Below are positions 11,680 to 64,000 of a stretch of 64,000 nucleotides of DNA, one piece after another. A model generated the notes under the pieces. That model did not search any database and was not told the DNA's origin. It worked only from the letters and a program-made list of their open reading frames with translations. The translations under genes were made by a program, and so were the position numbers. Source of the DNA: Cephalotus follicularis (taxonomy: Eukaryota > Streptophyta > Magnoliopsida > Oxalidales > Cephalotaceae); NCBI GenBank assembly GCA_001972305.1, contig BDDD01000895.1, forward strand, positions 186,001 to 250,000. The letters are read 5' to 3'. Position 1 is the stretch's first letter. Each line of letters starts with the position of its first letter.

Positions 11680-11830
11680 GACGTCGACGTCTTTCCTTAG
11701 ACGTCGATGTCTTTTCCTCTTTCATAAGAGGGTATCGATGTCTTCACCCTACATCGATGTGCATGTCCATGCATTCACGTGCATCTAGGTTCCCATAGGC
11801 GTCGACGTCTTTCCAAAGACATCGACGCGA
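11680..11830 (-). repeat. Phased GACGTCGACGTC motifs, B LTR array 1
   Basis: Six or more copies of a 12-bp palindrome-like motif (GACGTCGACGTC and variants) lie at counted distances of 20, 31, 19 and 20 bp. The array lies nearer the sense start of the LTR than array 2, as in family A. Confidence 0.75.
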
Positions 11831-12002
11831 TTGTCCCAAAACCGCGTCGTTTTTGGTTTAACATACACATTTCTTTCCCCAAAACAATATTTAGGGTTTG
11901 GAAACATCTTGTGAGGCCGAAATCTCAAACATTTTCATTAATTCAAGCATAAGATTACATCTTAAACGAAACATTACAATAAATAAAACACCAGGTGTTA
12001 CA

Positions 12003-12558
12003 ATTTGTTAGCTTGATAATGAAATGACTTTGATATATTCTTTGAATGAATATTGTTGTTTCATTATTTTGGTTGGTTAACTATTGATTAATCATGAAAA
12101 TATGTTTTAAACTTGTTTTATGAAGTTTGGTATCTATTTTTGTTTTTAAAATTTTTTGAAAATCTTGTTTTACACGTCAACATTTATAAATACTCTTGTG
12201 TTTTAACGTCAACGCTAAGACATAGCGTTAACGAAAATATACGCGTTAACGTAAATAAGGGAATACTTATGATCTTGTGCGTCAACGCTATCTATTAGCA
12301 TTAACGACATGTTTTTGCGTCAATAATGACGTTAACGCCTTTATCGTATATATCAAATGGTACACGATAAGCGTCAATGCAAACGTTAGACGTCGACATC
12401 TACGGGTCGAGTATATAAAGCTCTGTGCATTTTCGTCGACTCTTACTCGTTTTGGCGTTAAAATCCCTAGTTTCCCTCTCTCTGTTTTTTCTAAAATCCA
12501 ATCTTAAAACCTCTAAATCTTGAACCTTTTTTTTATATCAAAAACCTTATCCTGCATA
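12003..12558 (+). promoter_or_regulatory. Upstream region and TATA box of the Sirevirus-associated ORF
   Basis: No open frame of note is present. Repeated GCGTCAACGC / GCGTTAACGC / CGTTAACG motifs lie at about 12175-12400, with one CGTCGACA. TATATAAA at 12412-12419 is a good TATA box. It is followed by a pyrimidine-rich leader and then ATG at 12559. The same GTCAACGC motifs fill the 3' LTR of element S, which links the two pieces. I infer a promoter placed before the ORF. Confidence 0.5.
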
Positions 12559-14963: not shown

Positions 14964-15128
14964 CCGTCGACACTTTACTGCTTTCAAAACTGACCCGTCG
15001 ATGTTTTCATGCCTTTAAATTGGGTAGTCGATGCTTTATACTTATGCTTTTTAAAACCGGCGACTCTTTTGTGTGTTAGACTGAATAGTCGACACTTTAC
15101 ACTTTTAAACTAAACTAGTCGATGCTTA
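14964..15128 (+). repeat. Array of GTCGA(C/T) motifs spaced about 30 bp, LTR E
   Basis: Motifs such as CCGTCGACAC, CCGTCGATG and TAGTCGATGC recur at counted distances of about 31, 30, 33, 29-30 and 30 bp. This is one helical turn more than the 21-bp spacing seen in other families. Most copies are followed by CTTT. Confidence 0.7.
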
Positions 15129-15669
15129 GTGCCTTGTTTTGTGAAATGGCACTGTTTCTCACTGTTTTCAAATTCAAACTGTTTCTTCTTTACATTGATT
15201 CCATAGGAAGCCTCCCTAAGGCCTTGTATCCTCTGTGAATCATCTTTTAACATTGTTAAAGCTTTGACTCAAGTTTTTTAAGTGATTCTTGAAGAAATTG
15301 CAACAAAAGAGTTTTATACAAACGATTTTCAAGAATGGTTAGGATAGCCCCTTGGGACTTCTGGACACGGATGATCTCATTATACTTCCTCTCCATTAGT
15401 TTACAAACTCGATAGGGACCAAAAAACTGCTACTGTTACTGTTACTGAAACTGTTACTGTTACTAAACTGTTACTGAAACTGTACTGAAAATTGTTTTAT
15501 AACTGTTTTGACGGATGTGGTTCTTACATTGATCCTTTAGGTCCCTATCATTTCTACTGTTTACTATAATACTGTTATGGGTACGGGTACTGTATGATTA
15601 CTGTTATGACTGATACTGTTTGAGACCAAACGAGATAACCCATTCATACCCTTCGTTTTCGTCATAAAG

Positions 15670-25240: not shown

Positions 25241-27834
25241 AGTGATATCCTCCATCACTAACTATGGCAGTAACATAGACAATCAATTCAATTAGTACAA
25301 TCAGTAATAATATTACATATATAATCAATATGCAATATCAAGATGGTTTCTTTTAGAAACATATAACAATTCAGTAATTGTACGTCTCATGTGAGGAAAC
25401 GATATCAGTACAGTAGTGGTTTCCAATTCGGAAACAAACAGTGGTTACCTCTCATGTAGGAGGAAAATCAGTAATTCCGTTTAACAATAAACGTTCCTTT
25501 GAAAGTGATAGTAAATATCATAATCGTACATATAGCACACAGTTGATTCAATAATTAGAATCTGAAACAGTAGGTGAAAACAATATTTCATAAATCAATA
25601 GTTGATAAATCAGTACTGGATAATTCGGTATTCCTTGAAAATGATAGTGAATTATCACGATTTTGGATCAAGTCCCATAAATGGTTTTAAATCTTGAAAC
25701 TATCAGTAGTAGTGGTGTTAGTAGCACCAAACAGTAGATATATACTAACATAAGTAGTATATACAATAATATTAATCAATTCAATAGATTTTGTAAATCA
25801 TAGCTTTCACTTGAAATGGTGTTTAAGCCATAGATTGTGCATATAACACATAATTCGTTTGATCAGTGAAATATCAGTAGTAATGATGTTAACTAACATC
25901 ATACAGTATGTGCATTATGTTGGTAACATATACAAATCATCAACAATGCAAAACAGTAGCAATTCAGTGATTGTTATGCAGTTCCAGCCCAGAATAGTCG
26001 ACTGCCTCAAGAACCAGTCGGCTGTTGGGGTTGAGTAATCGACTGCTTTGGGTGGCAGTCGACTGGTTTTGCCCAGAAATGCAGGCAGAACAGTTTTGTA
26101 TAATGCAATTCCAATGCCAAATTAGTCAAATGCAAAGAGAAAATAACATACATGTAATGCATGATCATATCTTCCAAAACATAACACTACCCCTACCTCA
26201 ATTTGCTATCCCAAGATCAATTGTGTGATCTTTCTCTTTAAAGCTTCCAAAGCCTTTTCCAACCAATCTTCAATCCAATCCTTTTAATCTCAGCAAGTTA
26301 CAATCTAAACATGTACGTTATGGATACATGCAATCAGTTTCAGTGGTTCAGTAAACACTTATAGCCATTCAAATCAGTAGTTTAATCCATTAGCTCATTA
26401 AGCATATATCAACTCCCTTTTATCACATCTCATGCATTTGGTCCCTCTTTATCAATTCATTTCTCTTAGTGGACAGAAGAGGTGTAGGTATATTCATAAG
26501 AAATTCAGTAGCTTATCATGGTAACTCAACTACATTCAGTGATATCCTCCATCACTAACTATGGCAGTAACATAGACAATCAATTCAATTAGTACAATCA
26601 GTAATAATATTACATATATAATCAATATGCAATATCAAGATGGTTTCTTTTAGAAACATATAACAATTCAGTAATTGTACGTCTCATGTGAGGAAACGAT
26701 ATCAGTACAGTAGTGGTTTCCAATTCGGAAACAAACAGTGGTTACCTCTCATGTAGGAGGAAAATCAGTAATTCCGTTTAACAATAAACGTTCCTTTGAA
26801 AGTGATAGTAAATATCATAATCGTACATATAGCACACAGTTGATTCAATAATTAGAATCTGAAACAGTAGGTGAAAACAATATTTCATAAATCAATAGTT
26901 GATAAATCAGTACTGGATAATTCGGTATTCCTTGAAAATGATAGTGAATTATCACGATTTTGGATCAAGTCCCATAAATGGTTTTAAATCTTGAAACTAT
27001 CAGTAGTAGTGGTGTTAGTAGCACCAAACAGTAGATATATACTAACATAAGTAGTATATACAATAATATTAATCAATTCAATAGATTTTGTAAATCATAG
27101 CTTTCACTTGAAATGGTGTTTAAGCCATAGATTGTGCATATAACACATAATTCGTTTGATCAGTGAAATATCAGTAGTAATGATGTTAACTAACATCATA
27201 CAGTATGTGCATTATGTTGGTAACATATACAAATCATCAACAATGCAAAACAGTAGCAATTCAGTGATTGTTATGCAGTTCCAGCCCAGAATAGTCGACT
27301 GCCTCAAGAACCAGTCGGCTGTTGGGGTTGAGTAATCGACTGCTTTGGGTGGCAGTCGACTGGTTTTGCCCAGAAATGCAGGCAGAACAGTTTTGTATAA
27401 TGCAATTCCAATGCCAAATTAGTCAAATGCAAAGAGAAAATAACATACATGTAATGCATGATCATATCTTCCAAAACATAACACTACCCCTACCTCAATT
27501 TGCTATCCCAAGATCAATTGTGTGATCTTTCTCTTTAAAGCTTCCAAAGCCTTTTCCAACCAATCTTCAATCCAATCCTTTTAATCTCAGCAAGTTACAA
27601 TCTAAACATGTACGTTATGGATACATGCAATCAGTTTCAGTGGTTCAGTAAACACTTATAGCCATTCAAATCAGTAGTTTAATCCATTAGCTCATTAAGC
27701 ATATATCAACTCCCTTTTATCACATCTCATGCATTTGGTCCCTCTTTATCAATTCATTTCTCTTAGTGGACAGAAGAGGTGTAGGTATATTCATAAGAAA
27801 TTCAGTAGCTTATCATGGTAACTCAACTACATTC
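25241..27834. repeat. Perfect-looking tandem duplication, 2 x 1,297 bp
   Basis: 25241-26537 and 26538-27834 appear identical wherever compared, including two identical 67-codon open frames at 26025 and 27322. The joint reads ACATTC|AGTGATATCC; the outer flanks differ on both sides. The unit is internal LTR sequence and codes for nothing recognisable. It carries one GTCGAC array per copy (25995-26065 and 27292-27362). Confidence 0.93.
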
Positions 27835-28380
27835 AAATTAGAGATTAATCATTCTCATATTTGAACCAAGGTGCCTCATTCCATTTTAATCTCCATAGCC
27901 CTAGAGGATGTTAACCAATTATGTTACAGAAAATCAAGCATTCCTCTAATCTTACTGCCAGATTACAACAACACAGAGAGTTCGAATTCGAACTTACCAG
28001 GAGGTGTTCAAGCTTCCTACTTTGAGCTTCAAACTCCAACCCTCCAATCCTCTATGCAAGCTCTTTCAATCCTCCAGCAAATCCTTCTTTCTCAGTGTTT
28101 CTAACACTCTTCCTCAGCTCTCAACAGTTGATATAAGCCATGAATTCGTCAGAGACCATTTGCTCTAACAATTTCTCATCCTCTCACTCACATGCATCTC
28201 TTCATTTCTTACTCTTTTCTTGTCAAATCTGCAGGTTGCAGGTTTGGAACTTGCAGAGCACATGCAAGGGCATGCAAGGCATCACTTTGCATGTTATGGC
28301 AGCTTAGGACACGTACCCCCCATGCATGCCACGCCCAAGATCAGTTGACACCTGCACAGACACATGTTTTGTCGAAATTA

Positions 28381-28460
28381 CAGTCGACTGGATTCATGGG
28401 GCAGTCGACTGCCATGCCACGAATCATCCCAGTCGACTGTTGCCCTGTGACAGTTGACTG
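28381..28460 (-). repeat. CAGTCGACTG array 1, A2 LTR
   Basis: Four copies of the 10-bp palindrome (the last CAGTTGACTG) are spaced 21, 28 and 21 bp. The array lies upstream of the TATA-like box in LTR sense. Confidence 0.88.
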
Positions 28461-29295
28461 TCAAGGGTTAAATTAGGGTTTTCTTAAGTGGATTTCCACC
28501 AACTTGCATCCCAATTCATCCCAAGCAATTATCAACCACAAATTGCCATAATTGGACATTAAATTCAAATAAGTGCACATTTTATTAATCATTATTACAA
28601 TGTACACGAATTGAATTTGCGGTTCTTACAGGTACGCCCCATAGGTGGGTACAATACTCAGTATTCAATTGTTGCAAAAACATTGATTTATCAAAATCAA
28701 TTTAAAACCACACAAAATATGCTTTCACAACACATTGGAAAATCGTTTACCAACGATATCATAACATACATTTCATAACCAATTCATCAACTCATTTATA
28801 CTTCGCTATAAAGAGGTGATCATAACATATCGTATCATATCGTATCATAAGAATAAAGTCAAAATCATTTATAATTGTCAAAAACCAACTTCTTTTCCGA
28901 AACATATCAGAATCATAAAACATTATCAATTTCATAAACGAAGAAGCTTAGCAAAACTGGTTTCAGTTCGAAATTCAGATAGCCAATGAAACGATAGAAA
29001 TCCGTACAATGTTCATAAAGTAAAAATGCCTTTTGTTTACTACAGTAAAACTGATAGGAGGGTATCAAGAAATGAAGATCCGTACCTTATGCGTTCACAA
29101 TGCACTTACGGATAGATGATTCAACAAACTCCACTTGAAGCACAATAATCTAAAGACACCCAAAATCACACATATAAGAGTCTAAGACACATCAGAAACA
29201 TTAAACAGACTCATTACTATGTTTGGAAAAGACTCGGATCGATTTGAGGAACAAACGGATCAAAACAGTTGAAAACAGTACATTTATGGGCAAAA

Positions 29296-29479
29296 CAGTC
29301 GACTGTTACAGAGCACCAGCCGACTGGGGAAGCTTGGCAGTCGACTAATCACAAGGGCCAGGCGACTACACAAACCAGAAAGCAGGCAGTCGACTGTCAC
29401 TTGGATCCAGTCGACTATGTTCATGTGGCAGTCGACTACTCATCCATTCCAGCCGACTGTCCACAAGAACAGTCGACTG
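29296..29479 (-). repeat. CAGTCGACTG array, C 3' LTR
   Basis: Nine copies of CAG(T/C)CGACT(G/A) or close variants lie at spacings of 21, 21, 21, 28, 21, 21, 21 and 20 bp. The intervening 10-11 bases differ from copy to copy, so this is not a plain tandem repeat. The C 5' LTR has the same array with one extra copy. Confidence 0.9.
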
Positions 29480-30606
29480 TTCTGGACGACAGAACAGCAG
29501 CAACATGACAATTTTGATATAGAAACTGATTCAAACGATTACAACACTAAACCAGAGACTCATGGACATAAATATATGACTTTATGTGACATTTAGATGA
29601 CAAATGAACACATAATTGACAGGAAAACAGTTGGACAGTAACTTAACTTCCAAGGAAGACAAGAAAACATGCATACTTATATGTCCAGATTCTGTCCATT
29701 ATCATTTGCGGACTTTTAAAACTAGTTTGTGACAAGTCGAGGTATATCAAACATGTTAACAGACTTACTAACACTATGGTTAAACGTATATACGAGGAAT
29801 CAAAACCAAAGGACAATTAAGGACATAAAACTGCAATTATGACAATGTAGCAAATCCTTCACAGTAGGGAACGAATTTAACTAACCTGTAATGATTACCA
29901 AGAACACGAAAACACAACGAGAACAGCACAATTAATTTGTTACCCGGCTGTGAACAAAACAGAGGCCAAAGAAAACAAAACAGAGACATGCTTAGCAACC
30001 AAAAGAATTCAACCCAAAAGAACAACCAAAGGAATTGAGATTACCTCTGTAACGATTTCACAAGGATGAAACAGACTCCAACAATGCAGAATCGGCAGTG
30101 GCACATAACAGAAAAGTGAAGGCAGATATAAAAAGACAATGACACTCACAAAAGAAAAAAGAAGACAAAATCTGCTCAAAAGGGAAAAAGAGGGAACAAG
30201 AATCAGTTTAATATGGAGAGGGGAGATTGAAAACGTGTGAATTGATGAGGGGAGGGAGTGAATTCGGGAGAGGAGAGGAAGAAATAGGAAAGAAGAAGAA
30301 AATAAGAAAGGAAAGAAATAAAGGAATTAAAAGAAATAAAAATAAAAGAATAATAGAATTTTAAAATTTTAAAATAAAATAAAGTAATGGTTTTAATAAA
30401 ATATATTGAATTATAATAAAATAAATAAAGCCCAAACCCAACATAGCATAACACATCAAATTATTCAGGCTGGTATCAAACAGCCCAAATCACATAGGCC
30501 CAAAACAAAGGGCAACCGAACTTTTAAAATTAACAGAAATAAAAAGCCCGAAGTCAAACACATAAAAGTCCGTAAAAACACATACAAACAAGCAGGTTAT
30601 TACATC

Positions 30607-30626
30607 CACCCCCCCTAAAAAGAAGA
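30607..30626 (-). other. Polypurine tract of element C
   Basis: On the minus strand a TTTTTAGGGGGGG tract ends four bases before the 3' LTR start (TGTAATAACC). A TTTCGGGACGAAATC just upstream recurs next to G's tract at 61690-61703, a conserved end of this gypsy lineage. Confidence 0.85.
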
Positions 30627-30645
30627 TTTCGTCCCGAAATCACAA

Positions 30646-33491
30646 TGTAATACCCCGATTTTCGTGTGCATATTTTCGGATTTTTGTTTGATTTTATGTT
30701 GGTGTGTCATATTATTATTCGGCCTATTTTAATTTATGAGCTATATGGTATTATAATTTTTGGGCTTTTATGTCTTAGGCTATAATACCATATTTGGGCT
30801 TTGATAAATTGTTGGAATAATGATTATAGGAAAAATAAAATTTATTGTTGATATTTTAAATTAATTTTAAATCTGTTTTTATATTAGAAATAAGGCAAAA
30901 TTGTTTTATTTGGAAAATAAATTCCTTTTTCTATTTAAAACCTATTACTTTCTATTTTTCCCTCTCCCTCTCCCGTACTCTTGCTCTCTTCTCTCACAAA
31001 ACTGATTTCTTGCCTTCCTTTTTCTCCCTCAATCCCGAAAATTTTGCCCCTTTCCACATTATATCAGATTTGGATTCCTTTTCTACATTACCATGACCTA
31101 AATTGCCTTTCTCATATTGTAGATGTATGCCATTATTCATTGTTATGCCTCCACTGTGTCATTGTGCCTAGAACCGAACCTGCAAGATTAGAATCTGTTT
31201 TGTTCTCCTTTGATCATCATACCAGGTTTGTTTTTCCTCTATGGATATGGCTTAGCAGTGAATTTTCGTTTATAGTATCTAGTGCATGTGCATATAGGTT
31301 GCTAGTATGTTATATTTTAATCCCTATCATGTTTGTTCTGTTATGGTTTATAAGATTATTAGTAAGTTCTGGGGAGTCTAATAATGGTAGTAAACAGGTT
31401 TTAAATTTAACAGTTAGTGTTTGACAGGAAATTGATCACATAGTTATGCATATAATGAATTGGAAATTTGCCTCTTTATAAGTGTGATCACCATTGCATG
31501 AATTTCTTGATTCTGGGTGTTTAAATGCAAGTCTTAAGTCACATAAGTCCTATGTAAGTGTTTAAGATCGTCTAGTGTTGTAATATTGGAAGTTTAACAG
31601 AAAATTGGAATTGAAACTGCTATGTTTTTGCTGTTCTGTCGCCCAGAACAGTCGACTGCCTTGTGAAACAGCCGACTGTTTTGCCTTGCACAGCCGACTG
31701 GACCCTCTGTCACAGTCGACTGGATTCAACCCAGTGTGAGTAGTCGGCTGCCTATGCAGTACAGTCGACTGCCACCCTTGAGTAGTCGACTGGATTGTGT
31801 TACAGTCGGCTGGTTTTGTCCAGTAAATTTTCTGGTTTCAAGTTTTGTTATCCGTTTGGTTTTGTAATAATTTGGGGTATGTTTTAAGCACTGTTAAATT
31901 ACTGTATGATGTTTGGAAGTGATTTTTGAATCCTTATATGTATGATATTGCATCTCTTAGATTTTTGTGCTACGAGGGACAATTAGAAATTGTTGATCAA
32001 TTCGTAAAGTTATTTTTGTGATCGCATAAGGTACGGATGTTTCGTTCCTTGACACCCTCCTACTGTTTTTATAGTAAAAAGATAGTTTTACTTTATGGAT
32101 AACGTACGGATTCTAACGTTCTTCAGTTATCTGATTTTATTGAAACTGTCATGTTTTACTTTATAAATAATGTACGGATTCCTATCGTTCCTTGGCTATC
32201 TGATTATCAAACTAAAATCAGTCTTATTCTATGATCTCGTCTTATAGATTTGGTTATGTTTCATGATATGTTTTGGAAATAAGTTAGTTATTGATATTTT
32301 ATGAAATTAAATGTTCTAAACTTTATTTTTATGCCAAAAATACGTTACGATATATTATGAAATGATCATCTCTTTACAGTAGAAAATAAGTGAGTTGATG
32401 TTATGTAATGATTTTGCTATGTCCAGAAAATGTTTAGAAAATGTGTTTACGTTTTTAAATTGTTTTTAGAAATAAAGCAATGTTTTTGAAATAAGGATAT
32501 ATACAGAGATATTTCCTACCTATGGAGGTACCATAGGCGTGTCGTGGGCCTGGCACGGGGACATGACACTACCGTAGTGGTGTGATTTGACTACGGCGTC
32601 TCTCTATGTTTTGAATAAATCCCATGAGGTGGATTTATGGATCCGATATGTGTGATAGAGGCGTATGGGTATACTCTAGTTATATGGTATGTTAAGGATA
32701 TGGATTCTGGGGATTGGTTGTGTAGTGTCGTACACGTCCGTCCGTTTGGCATGTGGGCCTTGCAAACCCCTTGCACCTATGCATATGTGTATGCACTTTG
32801 GATCTCGGAAATGAAATTATGGAATCGGATAAGTCTCTGTTGGTTTCTCGTTTTGAATATGTTTTGGGATTTTGAACTTGGATCATGTTTTGAAATTTAA
32901 TAACGCTTAGAAAATTGGATATTCGTTTTGAATTGATTGTATGATTACTTACTTTCGCTTTTATAAATAATGTTAAATTACTTTATGCATAAGATATATG
33001 TTATTTAATGATTCAGGTATTTTCTATCTTTTAAATTATCATTTTATGTTTTATGATTCTATATCCGTACTGAGGTTTGCTCAGCCGCGTTTTTGTTTCC
33101 ATGCGGCAGGTATACGGGGACAACATCAGGACAATGTGTGATGGGCGAGATGTCACATATGATAAGGATCACTTAGGAGATGGAACCGTTTATGCTTAGT
33201 TATTTTATGGTCATGTTAGGACCCCCTATTAGAACAATATTATGTCTTTCGGTTTATGACTTTGGATTATATTTCAGTTTTTGGTTTATGTTTAAGTTTT
33301 CATATTATGAATAAAGTATTAGACAATGTTTTAGATTTTGAATATTAAGTTTTAGACCATCACGCAATTTGAATAAAGGATGAGTTAATAATCTGATTAA
33401 AAGGAATAAAATCGAGTTATATTTCATGATAGGTTATGTTTAGTCTTGGACTATGAACCGTAATGACTCCCGCCATTCGGGGGGTGTTACA
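30646..33491 (+). mobile_element. Solo LTR C-s with CACAA target duplication
   Basis: It starts TGTAATACCCCG and ends GGGGGTGTTACA, flanked by CACAA at 30641-30645 and 33492-33496. It is related to the C LTR but inserted in the opposite orientation, about 20 bp upstream of C's polypurine tract. It carries a pyrimidine-rich tract (30957-31010), a CAGTCGACTG array (31649-31812) and the TTTTTGTTTCCATGCGGCAG block (33090-33109). The 147-codon open frame at 30981 has no recognisable protein features. Confidence 0.92.
31649..31812 (+). repeat. CAGTCGACTG array, solo LTR C-s
   Basis: Eight copies (CAGTCGACTG, CAGCCGACTG, TAGTCGGCTG and others) are spaced 20, 22, 22, 28, 21, 21 and 20 bp. The spacer sequences are unrelated to each other. 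Confidence 0.9.
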
Positions 33492-38221: not shown

Positions 38222-41007
38222 TGTAACACCCCTGGACGGCGGGAGTCATCACAGGTCATAATACAGAACCTATCATAACATATCAGCCAAAATGTGGCGG
38301 TCTTATCATAACTGAAACTTTAAAACTTAAACAATTAACCATTTTCGGAAAGACTTAAACATAACCAAGTTCCAAATTTAAATCATAAAAACATAAGTGT
38401 CATAGTTTACGACCACTAGACATAATAACATAGGGATCACACTCCTAGGGATAAAAAAACATAGGGTGTTCATCTCTCATTCACACATTCCCCCACTGCT
38501 CCTGATAACCTGCCGCATGGAAAACAAAAACACGGCCGAGCAAACCGCAGTACGGATAAGGGAAATAAAACAGTAACGATAAGTTTAAAAGCAGTAAGAT
38601 TTCAATAAAATTCATAACGGATATTTTAACAGTTTAAATATTATTCGAATATCCATAAAATATCAATTTCATACCTTTCGAAACATTTTCACAAATCATC
38701 ATTCCATAATTCACAGAATCATACTGAGCCACATACATATCATATTTCACATATATTGGCAAGGGAGGCGCTAGTTCCACATGCCCACTAGAATTGAAGT
38801 GTATGGCACTACACAAGTCAATTCTTACATATCACATATCATATCGTTCACCAGATCACATATCATATACTAGAATCGATTCATAGGCCTCTATCATACA
38901 TAGCGGACCAATAAATCCACCTCATGGGATTTATTCATAACACTCAGAGATGTCGTAGACTAATCACACCGCTACAGAAGTGTCACGTCCCCGTGCCAGG
39001 CCTACGACGTGCATATGGTACGCCCCATAGGTGGGTACAATCTCAGTATTCAATTGTTGCGAAAACAATGATTTATCAAAATCAATTTAAAACCACACAA
39101 AATATGCTTTCACAACACATTGGAAAATCGTTTACCAACGATATCATAACATACATTTCATAACCAATTCATCAACTCATTTATACTTCGTTATAAAGAG
39201 GTGATCATAACATATCGTATGATATCGTATCATAAGAATAAAGTTGAAATCATTTATAATTGTCAAAAACCAACTTCTTTTCCGAAACATATCAGAATCA
39301 TAAAACATTATCAATTTCATAAACAAAGAAGCTTAGCAAAACTGTTTTCAGTTCGAAATTTAGATAGCCAATGAAACGATAGAAATCCGTACAATGTTCA
39401 GAAAGTAAAAATGTCTTTTGTTTACTACAGTAAAACTGATAGGAGGGTATCAAGAAACGAAGATCCGTACCTTATGCATTCACAATGCACTTACGGATAC
39501 ATGATTCAACAAACGCTACTTGAAGCACAATAATCTAAAGCCACCGAAAATCACACATATAAGAGTCTAAGACACATCAGAAACATGAAACAGACTCATT
39601 ACTGTGTTTGGAAAAGACTCGGATCGATTCGAGGAACAAACGGATCAAAACAGTTGAAAATAGTACATTTCTGGGCAAAACAGTCGACTGTTACAGAGCA
39701 CCAACCGACTGGGGAAGCTTGGCAGTCGACTAATCACAAGGGCCAGCCGACTACACAAACCAGAAAGCAGGCAGTCGCCTGTCACTTGGATCCAGTCGAC
39801 TACTCAACACAAAGCAGTCGACTGTGTTCATGTGGCAGTCGACTACTCATCCATTCGAGCCGACTGTCCACAAGAACAGCCGACTGTTCTGGACGACAGA
39901 ACAGCAGCAACATGACAATTTTAATATAGAAACTGATTCAAACGATTACAACACTAAACCAGAGACACATGGACATAAACATATGACTTTATGTGACATT
40001 TAGATGACAAATGAACACAGAATTGACAGGAAAACAGTTGGACAGTAGCTTAACTTCCAAGGAAGACAAGAAAACATGCATACTTATATGTCCAGATTCT
40101 GTCCATTATCATTTGCGGACTTTTAAAACCAGTTTGTGACAAGTCTAGGTATATCAAACATGTTAACAGACTTACTAACACTGTGGTTAAACATATAAAC
40201 GTAGGAATCAAAACCAAAGGACAATTAAGGACATAAAACTGCAATTATGACAATGTAGCGAATCCTTCACAGTAGGGAACGAATTTAACTAACCTGTAAT
40301 GGTTACCAAGAACACGAAAACACAACGAGAACAGTACAATTAATTTGTTACCCAGCTGTGAACAAAACAGAGGCCAAAGAAAACAAAACAAAGACATGCT
40401 TAGCAACCAAAAGAATTCAACCCAAAAGAACAACCAAAGGAATTGAGATTACCTTTGTAATGATTTCACAAGGATCAAACAGACTCCAACAATGCAGAAT
40501 CGACTGTGGCACATAACAGAAAAGTGAAGGCAGATATAAAAAGACAATGACACTCACAAAAGGAAAAAGAAGACAAAATCTGCTCAAAAGGGAAAAAGAG
40601 GGAACAAGAATCAGTTTAATATGGAGAGGGGAGATTGAAGTGAATTGATGAGGGGACGGAGTGAATTCGGGAGAGGAGAGGAAGAAATAGGAAAGAAGAA
40701 GAAAATAAGAAAGGAAAGAAATAAAGGAATTAAAAGAAATAAAAATAATAGAATAATAGAATTTAAGAATTTTAAAATAAAAGAAAGTAATGGTTTTAAT
40801 AAAATAAATTGAATTATAATAAAATAAATAAAGCCCAAACCCAACATAGCATAACACATCCAATTATTCAGGCTGGTATCAGACAGCCCAAATCACATAG
40901 GCCCAAAACAAAGGGCAACCGGACTTTTAAAATTAACAGAAATAAAAAGCCCGAAACCAAACACATAAAAGTCCGTAAAAACACATACGAACAAGTAGGG
41001 TATTACA
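38222..41007 (-). mobile_element. 5' LTR of element C (2.8 kb)
   Basis: The plus strand starts TGTAACACCCC and ends GGTATTACA. It is an intact copy of the LTR split at 21302-30606 and shows where J and A2 inserted there. It contains the CAGTCGACTG array (39681-39886), the CCTGCCGCATGG block (about 38509-38520) and AT-rich U3 sequence with GGCCCAAA tracts. Open frames in it are chance. Confidence 0.9.
39681..39886 (-). repeat. CAGTCGACTG array, C 5' LTR
   Basis: This is the ten-copy counterpart of 29296-29479, with one added unit (a CAGTCGACTACTC / AGCAGTCGACTG step). The two LTRs of one element therefore differ by gain or loss of a single unit. Confidence 0.88.
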
Positions 41008-41949: not shown

Positions 41950-42062
41950 TAGACCCCTCGGGTGAGGGTAGAGGGGGGATGTGCAGTATAGTAGACCCCC
42001 GGGCGAGGGTAGGGGGTGAGTGTAGCGTAGTAGGCCCCTCGGGTGAGGGTAGAGGGGGTACT
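41950..42062 (+). repeat. 39-42-bp tandem repeat in LTR D2
   Basis: Three copies of AGACCCCTCGGGTGAGGGTAG type start at 41951, 41993 and 42032. The head is the imperfect palindrome CCCTC-GGGT-GAGGG. It lies at roughly the LTR position where D1 has its 61-bp repeat with CCTCGA(T/C)CGAGG. Confidence 0.8.
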
Positions 42063-43695: not shown

Positions 43696-44998
43696 TGTAA
43701 TAACCGTAACTTCAGTTCATGTATTTTATACCCAACGATGAATAAAATATACCTTTTGAGATATTATGTTGGTTACCTTTTGAATAGAATGATGTTGGAA
43801 TAAAATTCTTAGATAAAATCTAAAGAAATAATTTCTGGTGCAAAACCGTCGATGCCTAAAGTCTTACCGTCGACGCTTTAAGCCCTGACAAGTGCACAAA
43901 ACGCACAGTTGAAGGCTGAGTTAAGACGCACAAACTGTCGACGCCAGAGAGAAGACGATCGACGCTTTGCACGGTGTCAGGAATGTGACACAAGCCTGTT
44001 AGAACAGAGCAGCGGTGCCAAATGGTTTTCCTTGCAAGCCAAATGCCCGGAGAAGTGTCAATCATGCAAGGAAACATTACCAGTTGTTGATAATGCAGAC
44101 TAAGGTGTCTTGCATGTATTCTCTAACTTGCAACCTGCAAAACACAGCAGAAAAGGGTAAGAGAAAACAAGGAGAGAATGCATGCATGAGGGAGAGAGAA
44201 ATGTGCATTAAAAGTTAAACCAACTGTGGAATGGAAGGCTCGAATTTGAGCACTTATATCAGCTGATACTTCAGCCATTTGAGTGTTGAAAAACACTAAG
44301 GAAGAGGAGAATTGCTGGAGAATTGTGGAAGCTTGCATTTGAGGATTGGAGAGTTCAAGAGACTTAGAAGCCTTGATATTTCCTGGTAAGCTTCTAAATC
44401 TTGGATTATGGTTGAAGTTATAGGCTAACAGTAGTACATACTGCTTGCATGCCTACTGCACATAATGTTAAACTTATAAATGGTAACGAAAGGGGTTAAG
44501 TGTGAAAGCAAAATTAAGAATTGTTATGTCATTCAAGAGAAAGGAAATTTAGGAATTGATTATAGCCTCTAATTCGATTCCTTGAAGTTATCATGATTAG
44601 ATAACTGAATAAACTTACTGGTATTGATTTATAGACCTTTAAACATGTGATTGTTCAGGCTAATTACTGCAATTTGGAAGATTAAATCAGAGTGAAGAAC
44701 TTTGGACATAAAGTGAGAGGCCAATCCAATTTGGCTTTGGGATAGCAATTGACGTAGGGAAATTTGACATGTTTTTGAATATATAACATGTATAATGTGT
44801 AGTGATGGTCAATACTTGATTGAATGTTGAATTGGATTGAGTTTGGGTTGATTTTGTGCATCCCCTGTTTTGAAATTGCTCCTAGAATTCGTATGAATGC
44901 CAGAAGCATCGACGCTTACACAGAAACTGTCGACGCTTTGGTGCGTGAATGGCACATTAAGGCCTAGAATGTCGACTCTTTGGTTGTGTAGTGTCAAC
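43696..44998 (+). mobile_element. Truncated 5' LTR of A3
   Basis: It starts TGTAATAACCG. It carries GTCGACGCT arrays at 43847-43966 and 44906-44998, a TATATC box at 44255-44260, the hairpin AGTGTT-GAAA-AACACT at 44282-44297 and the donor CTG|GTAAGC at 44393-44400. It matches 48752-50048 and then jumps into gag at about 44999. Confidence 0.88.
43847..43966 (+). repeat. GCGTCGACGC-type array 1, A3 5' LTR
   Basis: Four copies (CCGTCGATGC, CCGTCGACGC, TGTCGACGCC, GATCGACGC) form two pairs, each with a core spacing of 21 bp. The position corresponds to the CAGTCGACTG array 1 of A2 and A4. The 3' LTR copy is at 48900-49024. Confidence 0.85.
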
Positions 44999-48751: not shown

Positions 48752-50450
48752 TGTAATAACCGTAACTTCAGTTCATGTATTTTTTACGCAACGATGAATA
48801 AAATATACCTTTTGAGATATTATGTTGGTTACCTTTTGAATAGAATGATGTTGGAATAAAATTCTTAGATAAAATCTAAAGAAATAATTTCTGGTGCCAA
48901 ACCGCCGACGCCTAATGTCTTACCATCGACGCTTTAAGCCCTGACAAGTGCACAAAACGCACAGTTGAAGGCTGAGTTAAGATGCACAAACCGTCGACAC
49001 CAGACAGCAGACCGTCGACGCTTTGCGCGGTGTCAGGAATGTGACACAGGCCTGTTAGAACAGAGCAGCGGCGCCAAATGGTTTTCCTTGCAAGCTAAAT
49101 GCCCGGACACGTGTCAATCATGCAAGGAAACGTTACCAGTTGTTGATAATGCAGACTAAGGTGTCTTGCATGTATTCTCTAACCTGCAAAACAGAGCAGA
49201 AAAGGGTAAGAGAAAACAAGGAGAGAATGCATGCATGAGGGAGAGAGAAATGTGCATTAAAAGTTAAACCAACTGTGGAATGGAAGGCTCGAATTTGAGC
49301 ACTTATATCAGCTGATACTTCAGCCATTTGAGTGTTGAAAAACACTAAGGAAGAGGAGAATTGCTGGAGAATTGTGGAAGCTTGCATTTGAGGATTGGAG
49401 AGTTCAAGAGACTTGGAAGCCTTGATCTTTCCTGGTAAGCTTCTAAATCTTGGATTATGGTTGAAGTTGTAGGTTAACAGTAGTACGTACTGCTTGCATT
49501 CCTACTGCACATAATGTTAAACTTAGAAATGGTAACGAAAGGGGTTAAGTGTGAAAGTAAAATTAAGAATTGTTATGTCATTCAAGAGAAAGGAAATTGA
49601 GGAATTGATTATAGCCTCTAATTCGATTTCTTGAAGTTATCATGATTAGATAACTGAATAAACTTACTGGTATTGATTTATAGACCTGTAAACATGCGAT
49701 TGTTCAGGCTAATTACTGCAATTTGGAAGATTAAATCGGAGTGAAGAACTTTGGACATAAAGTGAAAGGCAAATCCGTTTTGGCTTTGGGATAGCAATTG
49801 AGGTTGGGGATTTTGACATGTTTTTGAATATATAACATGTATAATGTGTAGTGATGGTCAATACTTGATTGCATGTGAATTGGATTGAGTTTGGGTTGAT
49901 TTTGTGCATCCCCTGTTTTGTAATTGCTCCTGGAATTCGTATGAATGCCAGAAGCGTCGACGCTTACACAGAAACTGTCGACGCTTTGGTTCGTGAATGG
50001 CACATTAAGGCCTAGAATGTCGACGCTTAGGTTGTGTAGTGTCAACGCTTAGTCATAAACCATCGACGCTTACACAGAAACTGTCGACGTTTTAGAACAG
50101 TAATTATAGAAATGTGCAAACGGATCGATTGAATTGATTATGATTGTAATTACCCTTGAACGGCTATATTATAGCTGCCATTGCTGTTATTGCTACTGTT
50201 ATATATATGTATTCCCGGATTTTACCCAATTTGATGCTCCAAGCATAAATAATGATTTTTACAACGGATTCTAATAGAAAATCTTATTGTTATACAATTA
50301 CTATTTTCCTCTTAGAGGTATTGCTACTGTTTTGTTCTCCAAGAGAACCACTACCGAAATGTTACTGTTCCTCCAAATGTGAGTTGCACAGTCATTGAAT
50401 TGTTATATGTTTCTAAATGAAAACAACTACTATATTGCATATTATATACC
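48752..50450 (+). mobile_element. Truncated 3' LTR of A3
   Basis: It is collinear with 43696-44998 and then extends further into the LTR interior, including a longer GCGTCGACGCTT array (49954-50090). Landmarks are the hairpin at 49331-49346 and the donor at 49435. Similarity to A4 ends at about 50450. The conserved acceptor-like block and the LTR end are missing. Confidence 0.85.
49954..50090 (+). repeat. GCGTCGACGCTT array 2, A3 3' LTR
   Basis: Six motifs have core spacings of 21, 42, 22, 21 and 21 bp. The first is a perfect palindrome GCGTCGACGC. One copy has drifted to GTCAACGC. Confidence 0.88.
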
Positions 50451-50685
50451 ATCCGATATCCACACATCGATAATCTTCATAACTCATATATCAACCTTTA
50501 GATTTATAAATTTATGAATGAGCACCATAAACAGTATGATCTTGAAGTAAATAACAGTTTTCTCTGCTAGAAAGTATAAATACTAATCTGCCATCTCATA
50601 GTGGCAAAAATGGATCCACAATACACATGCTATGCCGGAACCATCCATCAATAGAAATATAAGTTCCACCAGAAATGTACATCGG
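50451..50685. other. Unassigned AT-rich stretch between A3 and the S ORF
   Basis: I recognise no element end, repeat or frame here. TGCTAGAAAG at about 50567 also occurs at 12629 just before D1. This may mark duplicated or resumed S sequence, but the match is too short to rely on. Confidence 0.35.
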
Positions 50686-50953
50686 CAATCAATGCTCCTT
50701 TCTATGTAGAATTGTAGGATTCTCTTTTACTTCTGAAGATAGATTTAAGTTAGAGCAATGGTTTGAGACATTAGGTTGGAAATATTATTTTACAATCAAT
50801 GCTCCTTTCTATGTAGAATATGTTAAAGAGTTTTATAGCAATCTTACTAATGTTGGAGATAGTTGTGATTCTCTGGAGCTTAAGTCTAAGGTTAATAAAA
50901 CTATTATTAAGTTTGACGATAAAGTTTTAGGCAATATCTTGAATGTACCTGCT
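50686..50953 (+). pseudogene. S-element 'plant transposon protein' ORF, middle part
   Basis: The frame contains FETLGWKYYFTINAPF and VKEFYSNLTN, then IIKFDDKVLGNILNVPA, where solo LTR K interrupts it. These are motifs of the 'putative plant transposon protein' domain (Pfam Transposase_32), which is common as an unassigned ORF next to plant LTR elements; its function is unknown. A 27-bp stretch (50686-50712) is repeated at 50793-50819; only the second is in the protein frame, so the first marks a small duplication. Confidence 0.75.
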
Positions 50954-53776
50954 TGTCACACCCCGTTTTTGATAAACGACATTTAAGTGGTAGCAATAAA
51001 CCTAAAATCCAGTCTATACAAATTTATGGGGAAATTTAAAACTTTACAAACGGGTTATACACTTGCGGAAGCATTCAGAAAATGGGCCGTATAAATAACG
51101 CAACACGCATCCCATACTACGTGTCACAACAAAATAACATCTTGTTAACTGGTTTCAAAACGGAGCGTGAATACAAACTTCATTAAAACATAAATCTCCC
51201 CCATAGAGAAATTATATCAGTATTTATCCAAAACTCAACCATTGATTCAAATCCTTAGTACAATTATCCAATGAAACAATGTACAAATTAACATCCTCTC
51301 CAAACATGAGCAGGATTATCACAATATCAAAATAACTTAAGCAACATTCAAGATAGCAGCTCCCCAAACAGCCTCAACAGCACTTGTCCGATTGCCTCAG
51401 TCAATCTGAAATAGTAGGGGGTTAGCCTTTGTCCTCACTCGCCTAAGTATAAATACATTTTTGGGATCAATATAAAGGATTACACATATTTAACAATATA
51501 TAATCATATATGTGCATATCCATAGTACCTAATAGTTTGCAACCATTCCAATGGCTACAACCAGACAATCCATTTTTTCTCAGGTCACTGAGGACCCATC
51601 AAACACAATTCAGATGGATGCGTACACACCATGATTAGCACCCGGTCACATTACACACATGTGATTAGTAACCCAATTACATTACACACAGTGATTAGTA
51701 ATCATCTTATAAGGGAGTCTCAACTATTTACACGTCGTGGTTTATAGTCACAATGAGAAACCCTAACTACTTTACACACGGTGATTAGTAGCAACATATG
51801 TGAAACCCCCAGTTACTTTACACACCATGATTAGTAACCTATGGAATTCCCATCACAATCCATTTCCAAGTAAATTATGGTTTATAACATACTTGACAAT
51901 ATTACATTTATTTAAAATGTATAACTAGTCATTTTGCACAGCATTTAATCCTTCAAAAATACTTATTTTCGTATACATAATTTCAATCATTTGAAATCAT
52001 TTTTACAATCCTTTTGGAAAATATACATTTCCATACAACAATCATATACACATTTAACATGAAGAATATTTTGGAAGTCATGCAGTATCTCAAACAATAG
52101 TTCAATTCACAATAGTGTACAATGCAAACATATGCTCAGATGCACCAAGGCTCAAACCGGGCTCAACGGGTGTTATCTAAGCTAAAATCTCCACCCAGCA
52201 GCTTAAGGCGTCGATCCATTTCATTGGCATTGACGTTCAATTCCAATGTCAGCGCTTATAATAGTGTGAAACGCGTCGATGTTCTTCATAGGCGTCGACG
52301 CTTACAAGGCCAAGACCCTTGAGTGCCGACGTTATCACGAATGCGTCGATGCTTAAGGTAGGAACCTTAACACATCGTCGCTTCATGCGTTACAAACCCA
52401 AGAGCAGCAACCACATGTGTGAATCCTTTTTATTGGCGTCGACGTTCAAGTGATATCAGAAGATATCACTTCCCAGTCTCGATTCCAAGGGGAAATCCAA
52501 CCCCCAAACTCACATGCAATCCCCGAAACCTCCCTTACAGGTGTAGTATGCTCAACAGGTTATCCATATGTAACTGGATCATCAAACCATCATCAATTCA
52601 TGCAGTTAGCAAATTGAACATCACAGTCCTGCAAATGTTCTATAGAGGTGTCGACGTCTTTTTTTTAAGCGTCGACGTCTAATAGCCTGGAACATTGTCT
52701 TTTCTATTCAACATGCAAAACAGGGGTATTCAACCCAAATATACATGCAATCTAACATGATATCCATCCAGAAATCAACATACATCAGTAGTTACAAGTC
52801 AGACATGTTATAACATCAATCCAAGAACCAATCCAACTCAAGGCAGGCATGTAATTCATGCATTTCACCAATGACCATTCAATATGATTGAACTCAAAAC
52901 TTTCATGTATACAAAAACCCCTACATCTTTGTTCCAAGTTAGGAACTAGAATGTCCTCCTATTTAAGTCCTAGAACCGGCCACAGTAGCTCCACTCCTTG
53001 TCCAGCAACTGCAAGCCTCAAATTCCCAGCTCAAAGGTTCAACAATGGTGGAAGTGTTTATCTCTCCTCACTTCCTTTCTTTTCCATGATCTCACTCATG
53101 TGTTTAGTCAAGCCAGGGATGAATAGGGGAACATTTATGCCATGGAAATCTCTCTTTCCACTCACTAGTCCCGTTGCATGTACCCTTTCCCGTGTCCTCC
53201 TCCTTCACTTACTGTTTTTTTGTCCCTTTTATCTTCATTTTTGCAGGCTGCAGGTCATGGGGATTCAGCCCCCTTGCATGTCAAAGGTTGAGGACAAGTT
53301 TTGGTGCATGTCTGGCATCGGGCCGCATGCCCAACACATTGCATTTGGTTCCCCAAGATGCCTGCAAAGTGTTCTTGCTTTGCTCTCCTCGCACGTTAAT
53401 ATGTCAGTGCATAACGTGTCTGAGATTCGGCGTTACGCATCGACGTTTTCTTTAGACGTTGATGTCTTTTCCTTTTTCATGCGAGGGAATAGATGTTCTT
53501 GCCCGCATCAACGTGCATGTGCATGCACTTACGTGAACCATTTTGTATCGAAGGCGTCGATGCTTTCAATAGGCGTCGACCCGTTTTGCCCAAAACGGTG
53601 TCATTTCACTTCAATTTGTACTTTAACATTTCTTTTATATTCCTCTCTCGAAATCAACATATTTAGAGTTTGGAAAACATCATCAAGGTCGGGAATCCCG
53701 CCATTCTCATTAATTCCATAATAAGATTTCAATAAAAATTGAAATATCACATTGTGCGAAAATCTCGGGCGTTACA
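50954..53776 (-). mobile_element. Solo LTR K (2.8 kb) with CTGCT target duplication
   Basis: The plus strand starts TGTCACACCCCG and ends GGGCGTTACA, flanked by CTGCT at 50949-50953 and 53777-53781. It splits the S ORF. Its sense 3' half matches B and A (block at 51414-51448; GTAGTATGGGATGCGTG near 51104-51120). GTCGAC/GTCGAT motifs lie at 52207-52380, 52436-52450, 52648-52682 and 53430-53585. A 277-codon open frame on the plus strand (52888-53721) runs antisense to the LTR and has no domain or codon signal I trust. Confidence 0.93.
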
Positions 53777-54609
53777 CTGCTGTTGGACCAAAGATTTTTT
53801 AGATAATGAAATGGCCAGAGGATTTAGAATTAGTGCTTGAGAATTGTCTTAAGGTGTTCTACCCTAATGAAAATGTTTTTGGTGGTATGGCTTAGCCAAC
53901 CAATCTCCTTGGTGTTGAGCATATGCTACTCCACCACATAACTGCCACTCACATTCTTCCTACTTCCGGTGGGCACGAAAAGTTGAGTTATCAAGACTTG
54001 TATATTATGTGGCACATTGTGAATGGAAAACCCTTAAATCTCCCACATCTTATTATAAAGAATATGATTAGAGCAACTTCCAAAGTTGAAGGTGCATTAC
54101 CATATGGAATGGTAATCAACAAGATTCTCTCTCACTTTGGGATAGTGTTTGGAAATGAGGTAGCATCTAGGATAGATGTAGGAGACATCTACAATGCCTG
54201 TTCTTTGAAGAGAATGGGATGGAAGAGAGTATTTGATGTTGATTAGGGTGTTATGTGGCTGCCAAAGGAAGGAGGAAGAAAAAAGAGAAGAATAGAAGGT
54301 GATGGTGTTGAGGAGCAAGGAGAATCTCAAAGACCAAAGCAAACCCCTGCACCACAGATGCAGCAAAGTCAAGTAAGCAACAGCAACAGCTTTTCATTAT
54401 CCATGGAGATTTTTATGGCTGAAATGAGGAAATTGAATATCAAGATGGATAATATGCGAGAAGAGTTTCTAGACCTTTTTGACGATCAGCAAAGGCGTCA
54501 AAGGAGACTTGAAAAGAAGCTTATTGCCAAAGTAGTTATTGAAGCTGCTGACATCTCCTCATTGGAAGAAGAAGAATCAGAAGAAGGAGGAAATCATGTG
54601 AAGACGTGA
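53777..54609 (+). pseudogene. S-element 'plant transposon protein' ORF, C-terminal part
   Basis: Right after the second CTGCT the frame resumes. It continues through LLHHITATHILPTSGGHEKL, QDLYIMWHIVNGKPLNLPHL and GALPYGMVINKILSHFGI, strongly conserved motifs of the Transposase_32-type domain. Stops at about 53801, 53893 and 54243 break it. Downstream, a Lys/Arg-rich RKKRRI, a Gln-rich segment and a charged coiled-coil-like tail ending in an acidic EEEESEE run lead to the stop at 54607-54609. The position before multiple polypurine tracts is that of the third (envelope-like) ORF in some Sireviruses. No membrane segment is visible. Confidence 0.8.
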
Positions 54610-61938: not shown

Positions 61939-64000
61939 TGTAATAACCGCAATTTCGATTTGATGTATATTGATCCAATTATTGAAATAAAATATACATT
62001 TTAATTGAATTATTGTCCAAATATGATATTCTTTTGTGTTTAATTATGTTTGGAATGAATGGGGGTTCGTTTGGTGAAAATCGAACTCAAGAAACCCTAA
62101 TTTAACCCAGCACAGCCGACTGTCACAGGGGAACAGTCGACTGCCTGATGCGTGTGGTGTCCAGTCGACTGTCCCATGAATCCAGTCAACTGTAATTTCG
62201 ACAGAACATGTGTCTGTGCAGGTGTCAACTGATCTTGGGCGTGGCATGCATGGGGGGTACGTGTCCTAAGCTGCCATAACATGCAATGTGATGCTTTGCA
62301 TGCCCTTGCATGTGCTCTGCAATGACAGACCTGCACCTGCAACATTGAAAGGAGAAATTGGCAAGAAACAAGTGCATGTGAGAGAGAAGGAAATGTGGGA
62401 AGAGTTAGAGCAAATGATCTCTGGCGAATTCGTGGCTTATATCATCTGAATGAGAGGGTATTGTGAGTGTTAGAAACACTGTAAAAAGAGGGAATTGCTG
62501 AGGAATTGAAGGAGCTTGCATAGAGAATTGGAAATTGCATGCTTGAAGTTGGAGACTTGGAGAGTGAGTGAACAAGAACTCAAGCTTGTGACTCCTCCTG
62601 GTAAGTCCAATTCGAACCTTGTGTAATTGTAATCTGATAATAAGGTATCTAGGAATGCTTAATCTTTTGTTACATGGACTTGGTTAGCATTTCTAGGATT
62701 GAATGGAATGGTGCTAGGGTTCATAAGTATGAGAATGATTAATCTCCAAACTGATTGAGGGTTGTTGTCAGTTGTCATAACTACTGAATTCCTCATGAAT
62801 ATGCATATACACCTACTGGTCTCTAAGAGAAAATGAATGGAGATGGTTGATAAATGCATAAGAAGTGGTAAAAGAGAGTTAATATATGCTTAATGAACTA
62901 ATGGATTAAGCTACTGATTTGAATGGTTACAAGTGTTTACTGAACCTACTGTTACTGATGCATGTACCTATAACATGCATAGATTGAACCTACTGAGATT
63001 AAAGAATTGATTGGTGAAAGCTTGGAAAAGACTTTGGAAGCTTTAAAGAGAAAGATCATTCAATTGATCTTGGGATAGCAAATTGAGGTAGGGGTAGTGT
63101 TATGTTCTGGAAGATATGATCATGCATGTCATGTATGTTAATTTCTAATTGCATTTGAGTTGATTTGGCATTGAATTGCACTGCACATAAACTGATCTGC
63201 CAGCATTTCTGGGCAAAACCAGTCGACTGGCATAGAATGCAGTCGACTACTCAACCCCAACAGCCGACTGGTTCTTGAGGCAGTCGACTGCTCTGGGCTG
63301 GAACTGCATAATAATCACTGAATTGCTACAGTTTTGCATTGTTGATGATTTGTATATGTTACCAACATAATGCACATACTGTATGATGTTAGTTAACATC
63401 ATTACCACTGATATTTCAATGATCGAATGAATTATGTATTATATGCATAATTTACGGCTTAAACACCATTTCAAGTGAAAGCTATGATTTACAAAATCTA
63501 TTGATTTGATTAATGTTATTGTATATACTACTTATGTTAGTATATATCTACTGTTTGGTGCTATTTAAACACCATTGTTAATAATATTTCAATGATTGAT
63601 CGAACTAAGTACTACATGTACAAATTATGGTTTAAACATCATTTCCAAATGGGACTATTGATTACAAAACTACTGTTTTGATTAATGATACCGTATATAC
63701 TACTTATATTAGTATATACATACTGTTTGGAGCTATTAACACCACTACTACTGATATTTTAAAGATTGAAACCGTTGATGGGACTTGAACCCAAAATTAT
63801 GATAACTTACTATCATTTTCAAAGAGAGGTTTATTGTTAAAATAAACTACTGTTTTCCTCCACATGAGAGGTACCGACTGTTTTGTTTCCAAATTGGAAA
63901 CCACTATTGTACTGATATCGTTTCCTCACATGAGATGCACGATTACTGAACTGTTATATGTTTCTAAAAGAAACCATCTTGATATTGCATATTGATTATA
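61939..64000 (+). mobile_element. LTR A4 (family A), cut by the window end
   Basis: It starts TGTAATAACCG. Array 1 of CAG(T/C)CGACTG lies at 62113-62191, TATATC at about 62438, the hairpin AGTGTT-AGA-AACACT at 62466-62480, the donor CTG|GTAAGT at 62598-62606 and array 2 at 63220-63290. It is collinear with the A2 LTR in reverse. The conserved acceptor-like block and LTR end lie beyond 64000. Whether it is a solo LTR or the start of a full element cannot be seen. Confidence 0.88.
63220..63290 (+). repeat. CAGTCGACTG array 2, A4 LTR
   Basis: Four copies begin at 63220, 63240, 63261 and 63281 (spacing 20, 21, 20). It corresponds to 25995-26065 in A2 and, by position, to the GCGTCGACGC array at 44906-44998 in A3. 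Confidence 0.88.

Follow-up and report, generated by a model that had tools for sequence, protein, structure and literature searches.

We analysed 64,000 bp of the genome of Cephalotus follicularis (contig BDDD01000895.1, positions 186,001 to 250,000; this whole stretch is called the window below). The window consists of nested long terminal repeat (LTR) retrotransposons, whose proteins include those of gypsy chromoviruses and a "plant transposon protein" domain. Many of the LTRs carry arrays of short palindromes centred on TCGA and placed two or three helical turns apart. In several lineages of elements such an array is adjacent to a gene for the Pfam domain PF20167 (Transposase_32); this adjacency is new and was absent from the first-pass annotation of the window. 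Our best explanation, which we hold tentatively, is that the arrays may be platforms of a dimeric regulator common to the LTR promoters and to the promoter of the PF20167 gene, the PF20167 protein being the likeliest binder.

Abundance, phase and symmetry of the palindromes

GTCGAC occurs 51 times in the window where 6.1 occurrences are expected, an excess of about 8-fold which none of 100 shuffled sequences reached, and GTYRAC occurs 106 times where 52 are expected. We counted arrays, with patterns that we set ourselves, in the window and in 24 other regions (231.5 kb; 295.5 kb in all) picked by contig number regardless of content: 33 arrays were found, in 11 of the 25 regions, while each of 10 shuffled sets gave 0 or 1. 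In the whole genome (G000, 1.577 Gb, 9,746 contigs), the pattern GTCGAC-N15-GTCGAC, that is two sites at exactly 21 bp, is present 105,145 times against 1,224 for the reversed control pattern; CAGTCGACTG has 197,377 exact copies (control: 939) and GCGTCGACGC 73,186 (control: 121). A screen of 6-mers forming pairs at 20-22 bp with unrelated spacers, blind to GTCGAC and restricted to words with at least 12 pairs and at least 3 letters, returned as its top eight words only pieces of the GTCGAC motif; clearly unrelated words rank lower, with at most 8 pairs. A chance origin of the arrays is excluded. The first-pass annotation had described arrays of GTCGAC/GTYRAC palindromes, mostly 20-22 bp apart with some longer steps, and had proposed to compare them with shuffled DNA and to look for spacing peaks. 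The arrays are real and enriched over shuffles in the window, in the 24 regions and genome-wide, and their spacing is as described, with peaks near 21, 30, 42 and 50 bp separated by near-empty troughs.

These peaks were obtained with non-redundant pairs of [GA]TCGA[CT] in the 295.5 kb sample, spacers with their first 14 bases in common having been dropped both here and in the fit of the period. There are 91 pairs at 19-22 bp (0.4 expected), 23 at 28-31 bp (0.4), 18 at 41-43 bp (0.3) and 14 at 48-51 bp (0.4); the troughs hold 6 pairs at 23-27 bp, 5 at 33-40 bp and 1 at 44-47 bp. Among 150 GTCGAC sites, 85 have a neighbouring motif at 20-22 bp and 2 at 24-26 bp. The best-fit period is 10.1 bp, or 10.3 bp without the first peak; since longer distances within an array are sums of shorter ones, the p values of this fit are too small and we did not rely on them. 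In the array C1 of the window (29298-29477) the successive steps are 21, 21, 21, 28, 21, 21, 21 and 20 bp, and in the array of LTR K (31651-31810) 20, 22, 22, 28, 21, 21 and 20 bp. The strongest independent evidence for phasing comes from the families which use three turns (sampled loci are designated by L and a number): L011:784-1063 has three-turn steps throughout (30, 29, 32, 30, 31, 29, 32, 30 and 31 bp), partly as one duplicated block, and L054 has steps of 19, 31, 50, 50, 41, 19 and 43 bp.

The motif is about 14-16 bp long, with its TCGA centre, variable flanks and A-rich ends, and we found four flank classes: CA|GTCGAC|TG, GC|GTCGAC|GC, GAC|GTCGAC|GTC and GC|GTYRAC|GC. Covariation was counted after dropping site contexts at least 70% alike (in a sample of 121 sites) or at least 75% alike (in the set used for period and symmetry). 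In the 121-site sample, the mirrored positions beside the core agree in 37 of 60 arrayed sites, where 23 are expected; in the set used for period and symmetry, the agreement at offsets 2 and 4 from TCGA is 33 of 64, with 21.5 and 22.0 expected. Genome-wide, there are 270,563 pure CA..TG and pure GC..GC palindromes, and mixed CA/GC flanks number 12,715 when about 114,400 would follow from independent half-sites, which makes them 9-fold rarer. The paired change of the flanks announced by the first-pass annotation is therefore found again in the covarying half-sites, but at the level of family classes: this covariation reflects families of different flank class and not many separate compensations, and one-sided C-to-T or G-to-A decay of single site copies is common. 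Single linkage gives nine flank clusters among the arrays, a number which is only approximate as this method merges neighbours by nesting.

The phased neighbours of GTCGAC (n = 101) are GTCGAC itself (26), GCCGAC (22), ATCGAC (16) and GTCAAC (9), those other than itself being single transitions. The first three are all RYCGAC, the core of the CRT/DRE (C-repeat/dehydration-responsive element), and would fit arrays that are targets of CBF/DREB (AP2) stress factors, the elements being then responsive to cold or drought. ACCGAC/GTCGGT is the other canonical DRE core, and both A- and G-CCGAC cores are used; yet a phased neighbour accompanies ACCGAC/GTCGGT in only 2 of 62 cases, compared with 30 of 78 for GCCGAC/GTCGGC. 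This near absence of phased ACCGAC weakens the CBF/DREB proposal; moreover the upstream regions of the GTYRAC class mostly have no such core, and palindromic flanks are not expected for these factors. We consider it improbable.

In C1, the spacers have a mean pairwise identity of 0.25, against 0.26 after shuffling, and are unrelated, as the first-pass annotation had stated for all arrays; this does not extend to K, C2 and the array at 55.6 kb, whose spacers are slightly alike, so that some local duplication probably took part. Such likeness, together with the small internal duplications that exist, is what one would expect of passive arrays produced without any protein, by tandem duplication, by shared ancestry of one LTR sequence or through RNA-level hairpins. 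We give this very little credence: the spacers of C1 are unrelated, the flank clusters number nine (approximately), and the helical phase and the covariation would be difficult to account for unless double-stranded DNA is bound and selection acts.

Between families the sites are generally better kept than the spacers. When LTR C1 is compared with the diverged LTR K (sites defined in K), 71 of 80 site columns (0.89) are kept, compared with 37 of 83 in the spacers (0.45) and 465 of 732 outside. For 16 pairs, each compared both ways, the sites are more identical than the spacers in 29 of the 32 comparisons; these are not independent, the pairs share sequences, and the alignment of repeated motifs can favour sites. 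The other three (one tie, two below) all belong to the closer pairs L011 with window 14-15 kb and L011 with L025. Among 22 copies of the C LTR, conservation of the array is similar to that of the remaining sequence, and numerous changes inside it are transitions (C-to-T or G-to-A) in CG and CAG/CTG contexts, as methylated copies predict. Hence the arrays do not keep the copies free of methylation-type decay. We considered that they might be partly protected: CG columns have TG or CA in 25 of 215 cells in the array and in 94 of 530 outside, and A/T columns differ in 104 of 2,239 cells against 815 of 13,063; CG decay is thus slightly lower inside, which is not decisive, and we did not retain this proposal. 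The CG and CHG decay is also what silenced DNA predicts, and would suit a host architectural or silencing protein that recognises and packs the retrotransposons through their arrays. With such a handle the elements should lose their sites, yet the sites outlast the spacers between families, and we regard it as unlikely, if somewhat less so than the stress factors.

The sharing of arrays across gypsy and copia elements, also put forward in the first-pass annotation, is borne out by protein domains; the carriers have reverse transcriptase, gag and integrase domains and LTRs. Elements C and G are the gypsy carriers in the window, and in L011, L020, L025 and L029 arrays and gypsy domains lie in the same region, their joint membership in one element being unproven. 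The copia carriers are L014 (RVT_2), L028 (copia gag and RVT_2), L022 (RVT_2) and an element of contig 1 (gag PF14223); in L021 (RVT_2) the segment with the array has the opposite orientation to pol and could be part of a different element. Many arrays are located in LTRs, where all had been placed at first; others are found in a leader or 5' of an extra open reading frame (ORF). The leader case is L014, where the array lies about 1.5 kb inside the element, before the first ORF and outside the LTR (1067 to about 1556), which is followed by TGGTATTAGAGC, similar by eye to a primer-binding site.

A PF20167 gene beside the arrays

The clearest case of an array with a gene is a copia-type element without recognised pol (contig 1:4376-10195). 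Its LTRs (4376-5064 and 9487-10195, 96% identical) both carry arrays, and it encodes the copia gag PF14223. A further internal array (7492-7672) is followed by a pyrimidine-rich stretch and, about 119 bp 3' of the array, by the ATG of an ORF starting MASRKRKTT. This ORF (L002) matches PF20167 in two pieces of 39.4 and 27.9 bits, each below the curated Pfam cut-off of 45 bits which we used for membership. Between gag and the internal array lies another ORF (L002:673-1179), coiled-coil-like, which matches HALZ and bZIP_1 weakly, below the cut-off of each.

The copia regions L028 and L022 share the order reverse transcriptase, palindromes, PF20167 ORF; the sites end 130 bp 5' of the first ATG in L022 and 227 bp 5' of the open frame in L028. 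A dense ATCGAC/GTCGAT array in A+T-rich DNA (L028:1673-1912), between the copia pol and the PF20167 ORF, shows a further flank style. The contig-1, L022 and L028 ORFs all have in their N-terminal parts a basic stretch which by eye resembles a nuclear localisation signal. PF20167 is the only confident Pfam match of the extra ORF: L017 (68.0 bits) and L022:1849-2316 (46.1 bits) exceed the cut-off, as does the C-terminal piece present in the window, and L028 (27.1 bits), L022:1318-1845 (16.8 bits) and the N-terminal piece of the window stay under it (Table 1). With a local PF20167 profile the latter piece has E=4.7e-43, although it was part of the profile seed. The two pieces of the window are most likely one PF20167 gene split by a solo LTR. 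In L017, an LTR related to this solo LTR also ends beside a PF20167 ORF, in the same direction.

As several copies break near one point, we considered an intron in the extra ORF and rejected it: the stops differ and L017 reads through, so that the breaks look like separate nonsense changes. A fold model of PF20167 from a five-row alignment had a predicted local distance difference test (pLDDT) score of 40.5 and was unusable, and a sequence search of PDB with the protein gave two matches, at E 0.0094 (Multicystatin) and 0.25, which we did not credit. We also rejected Transposase_28 (PF04195), reported for a Retand extra ORF (PMC7264820), as a partner gene. An ORF with this domain (L028:8799-9683) is preceded, at a distance of 850-1440 bp, by motif sites, but no arrays accompany two further copies (L012, L015).

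The abundance of PF20167 is on the scale of a transposable element: there are 13,073 first-look candidates in the genome, and all 150 that were scored exceeded the cut-off; by our count, the matched stretch is free of stops in 120 of these. We sampled the upstream regions of the first, third and fourth of the four top-scoring ORFs (L053, L054 and L055), the second being at a contig end. All three have seven GTYRAC sites each, with a TATA-like word close behind, whereas random segments of equal length have a mean of 0.59 such sites and reach seven or more in 0.4% of cases. Positions 12144-12482 of the window are 78-88% identical to these three upstream regions. This means that the window holds such a region too, without its gene, as no PF20167 coding part was found behind it.

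Candidate binders of the arrays

Side-by-side binding by a dimeric protein, which the first-pass annotation had suggested, appears to be the best reading of the symmetric, phased and conserved sites; these features support the suggestion in part, the binding itself being a candidate only. From the sequences we infer a promoter role, the binding of a dimer, and activation or anti-silencing. According to our preferred explanation, a symmetric, most likely dimeric, sequence-specific protein would occupy the same face of the double helix at intervals of two or three turns, and the arrays would be promoter-proximal binding platforms, one type of platform serving two kinds of promoter, gypsy and copia LTRs on the one hand and the PF20167 gene's internal promoter on the other. 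The PF20167 protein, which is the leading candidate for the binder and unproven as such, would enter the nucleus, bind the arrays in the promoter of its own gene as well as those in the LTRs, and keep these promoters transcribed or unsilenced. Families without the PF20167 gene would keep their arrays and ride along in trans, and the resulting self-sustaining loop would be exploited by them. That PF20167 proteins read a single cis code in trans on the LTR and internal promoters of both superfamilies, by activation or anti-silencing similar to that of VANC or Tas, with the flank classes as specificity groups, is possible and somewhat more doubtful.

An ordinary dimeric host transcription factor recognising a TCGA-centred palindrome, and driving both kinds of promoter, explains the data almost as well and is nearly as likely. 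The arrays would then be enhancers, recruited independently by the LTRs and by the promoter of the extra gene, which would be cargo. Plant LTR promoters usually recruit host factors, families without the extra gene do carry arrays, and the arrays of LTRs C and K form GC-rich blocks 5' of the only TATA[AT]A[AT] boxes of these LTRs. The existence of four flank classes among the families nevertheless fits a co-evolving factor better than one host factor, the array stands beside the extra gene in several lineages, and we know of no plant factor with this palindrome, although no plant motif database was searched for one.

Several observations weigh against the PF20167 protein acting on phased arrays. 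The 28-bp step found in C and K is a poor match to a whole number of turns, and the steps of L053 (32, 37, 35, 19, 32 and 41 bp) also agree less well with whole turns. Between L014 and L021 the sites (0.60, 0.72) show no better conservation than the DNA beyond the array (0.70, 0.73), and the C-LTR copies lose CpGs inside their arrays. With the profile, element C gave no PF20167 match in its interior and G gave matches only past its second LTR copy, so that the families richest in arrays here are without the gene; the copies of the gene behind L002, L022, L028 and in the window are broken. By a strict rule, phased sites at most 750 bp 5' are present for only 2 of 3 unselected PF20167 ORFs (chance 0.127 per point), a count which excludes the contig-1 locus, as it was found through its array; the L017 array was not counted either, as it belongs to the LTR abutting the ORF. 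The three sampled upstream regions represent two lineages at most, since L054 and L055 come from a single family to which L053 is related. Finally, although the recurrence of the contig-1 array-plus-ORF module speaks for the link, 38 of 40 scored copies (counting the query) having it at full length, only the best 40 of 3,212 candidates were scored, and this is not the share of copies keeping the module.

VANDALs are Mutator-like DNA transposons. In the parts available of two reports, VANC proteins bind short motifs multiplied in VANDALs and hypomethylate them (Hosaka 2017 PMC5735166; Sasaki 2023 PMC10398659), VANC6 motifs also occur in the unrelated element AT9TSD1, and the motif differs between related families (PMC5735166, PMC10398659). 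The likeness lies in a transposon-encoded gene beside a short motif multiplied in noncoding transposon DNA, and it is weak here in the unselected regions alone. The VANDAL motifs given in those parts (YAGTATTAY, AGTTGTCC, AGTTGTAC) are non-palindromic and lie in tandem repeats, whereas here we have palindromes with mostly unrelated spacers, in retrotransposons of two superfamilies and with PF20167 instead of VANC; the available text of PMC5735166 contains neither "palindrom" nor "spacing". The VANC parallel drawn in the first-pass annotation gains some support from the arrays 5' of a transposon-encoded PF20167 gene in several lineages.

In foamy viruses, Tas is the product of an accessory gene that lies towards the 3' end and has a separate internal promoter; this promoter and the LTR have the same kind of site. 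The contig-1 element appears to resemble it, with the same sites in its LTRs and 5' of an accessory gene; to our knowledge, phased palindrome arrays have not been described for Tas. In Drosophila, the leader of gypsy carries an array of binding sites for Su(Hw), a host zinc-finger protein, in one family, and L014 may be compared with it as having a site array in a retrotransposon leader.

The extra ORFs (aORFs) of plant LTR retrotransposons are said, in the accessible portions of the papers cited here, to have no determined role (PMC7264820), and have been raised as possible anti-silencers (PMC12844716). PF20167 is present in a 3' aORF of sunflower Athila, with a predicted nuclear localisation signal and a relationship to Athila ORF1 (PMC11728184). 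The domain and the predicted nuclear localisation are common to that ORF and to ours; the same portions mention no upstream motif arrays and no link to LTR motifs, and here PF20167 is also found in copia-type elements. The literature searched, which leaves out most subscription journals, contained no description of phased palindrome arrays, and among the matches listed for CAGTCGACTG the titles were unrelated. If the PF20167 protein does bind the arrays, a function would be found for one set of the orphan extra ORFs of plant retrotransposons, a cis/trans control system would span two retrotransposon superfamilies, and the abundance of array families in one genome would have a testable reason. 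Even with a host binder, a motif with 197,377 exact copies of one flank class would be an unusually strong and directly testable promoter code.

Arrays and related features of the window

Table 1. Positions of the palindrome arrays and of the PF20167 pieces in the window
Positions	Strand	Feature	Remarks
11681..11837		GACGTCGACGTC-class array	relatives at 21.3-21.8 kb and 53.4-53.7 kb
12144..12482	+	GTYRAC-class array at 12176-12440; TATA box at 12412	
14964..15130		array related to L011:784-1063	steps of 29-32 bp (three turns) in L011
21514..21630		GC/GAC-class array	
25995..26065		four CA-class sites, LTR A (25239-26538)	
27292..27362		array identical to that of LTR A	adjacent identical LTR A (26536-27835)
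28381..28460		second CA-class array	in stretch 26987-28631, aligning with 61938-63597
29296..29479	-	nine CAGTCGACTG-type palindromes	3' LTR of element C (gypsy chromovirus) at 28631-30606, truncated at 28631; pol with chromodomain
31649..31812	+	eight palindromes, LTR K	K nested in element C, opposite direction
39681..39886	-	array, 5' LTR (39017-41009) of element C	
43867..43965	+	GC-class sites near start of LTR 43696-44998	element G
44906..44998	+	GC-class array, (truncated) end of element G's first LTR	
49954..50090	+	GC-class array within or next to element G's second LTR copy	about 580 bp 5' of PF20167 ORF remnant
50666..50965	+	N-terminal piece, PF20167 (Transposase_32) ORF	31.4 bits; initial detection by a tblastn search with L022, E 8.5e-8
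50951..53776	+	solo LTR; GC-class sites at 52294-52676 and 53575	interrupts PF20167 ORF; 5-bp target-site duplication CTGCT
53899..54228	+	C-terminal piece, PF20167 ORF	47.7 bits
55639..55900		GTCAAC/GTTAAC-class array	
62113..62231		CA-class array	stretch B (61938-63597)
63220..63290		CA-class array	stretch B (61938-63597)

The two 1300-bp LTRs at 25239-27835 are 100% identical and lie head to tail without an internal region; this two-LTR junction reflects either a recent event or an assembly artefact.

The first-pass annotation had added to the system a different palindrome, CCTCG..CGAGG, in repeats of the D LTRs. Units with CCTCG-NN-CGAGG-like palindromes, and not the GTCGAC motif, do occur at 17460-17649 and 41949-42058; these are ordinary tandem repeats of 62 and 40 bp, with matches of 84% and 81%, and we do not count them as part of the system. 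A 33-bp tandem repeat at 15691-15881 has a unit with AACAGTCGAGAC, which includes one half of a CA-class palindrome, and its copies are about three turns apart. Degenerate repeats rich in AAACAGT- and CAAAACA-like words, with periods of 16-36 bp, occupy 59093-59471.

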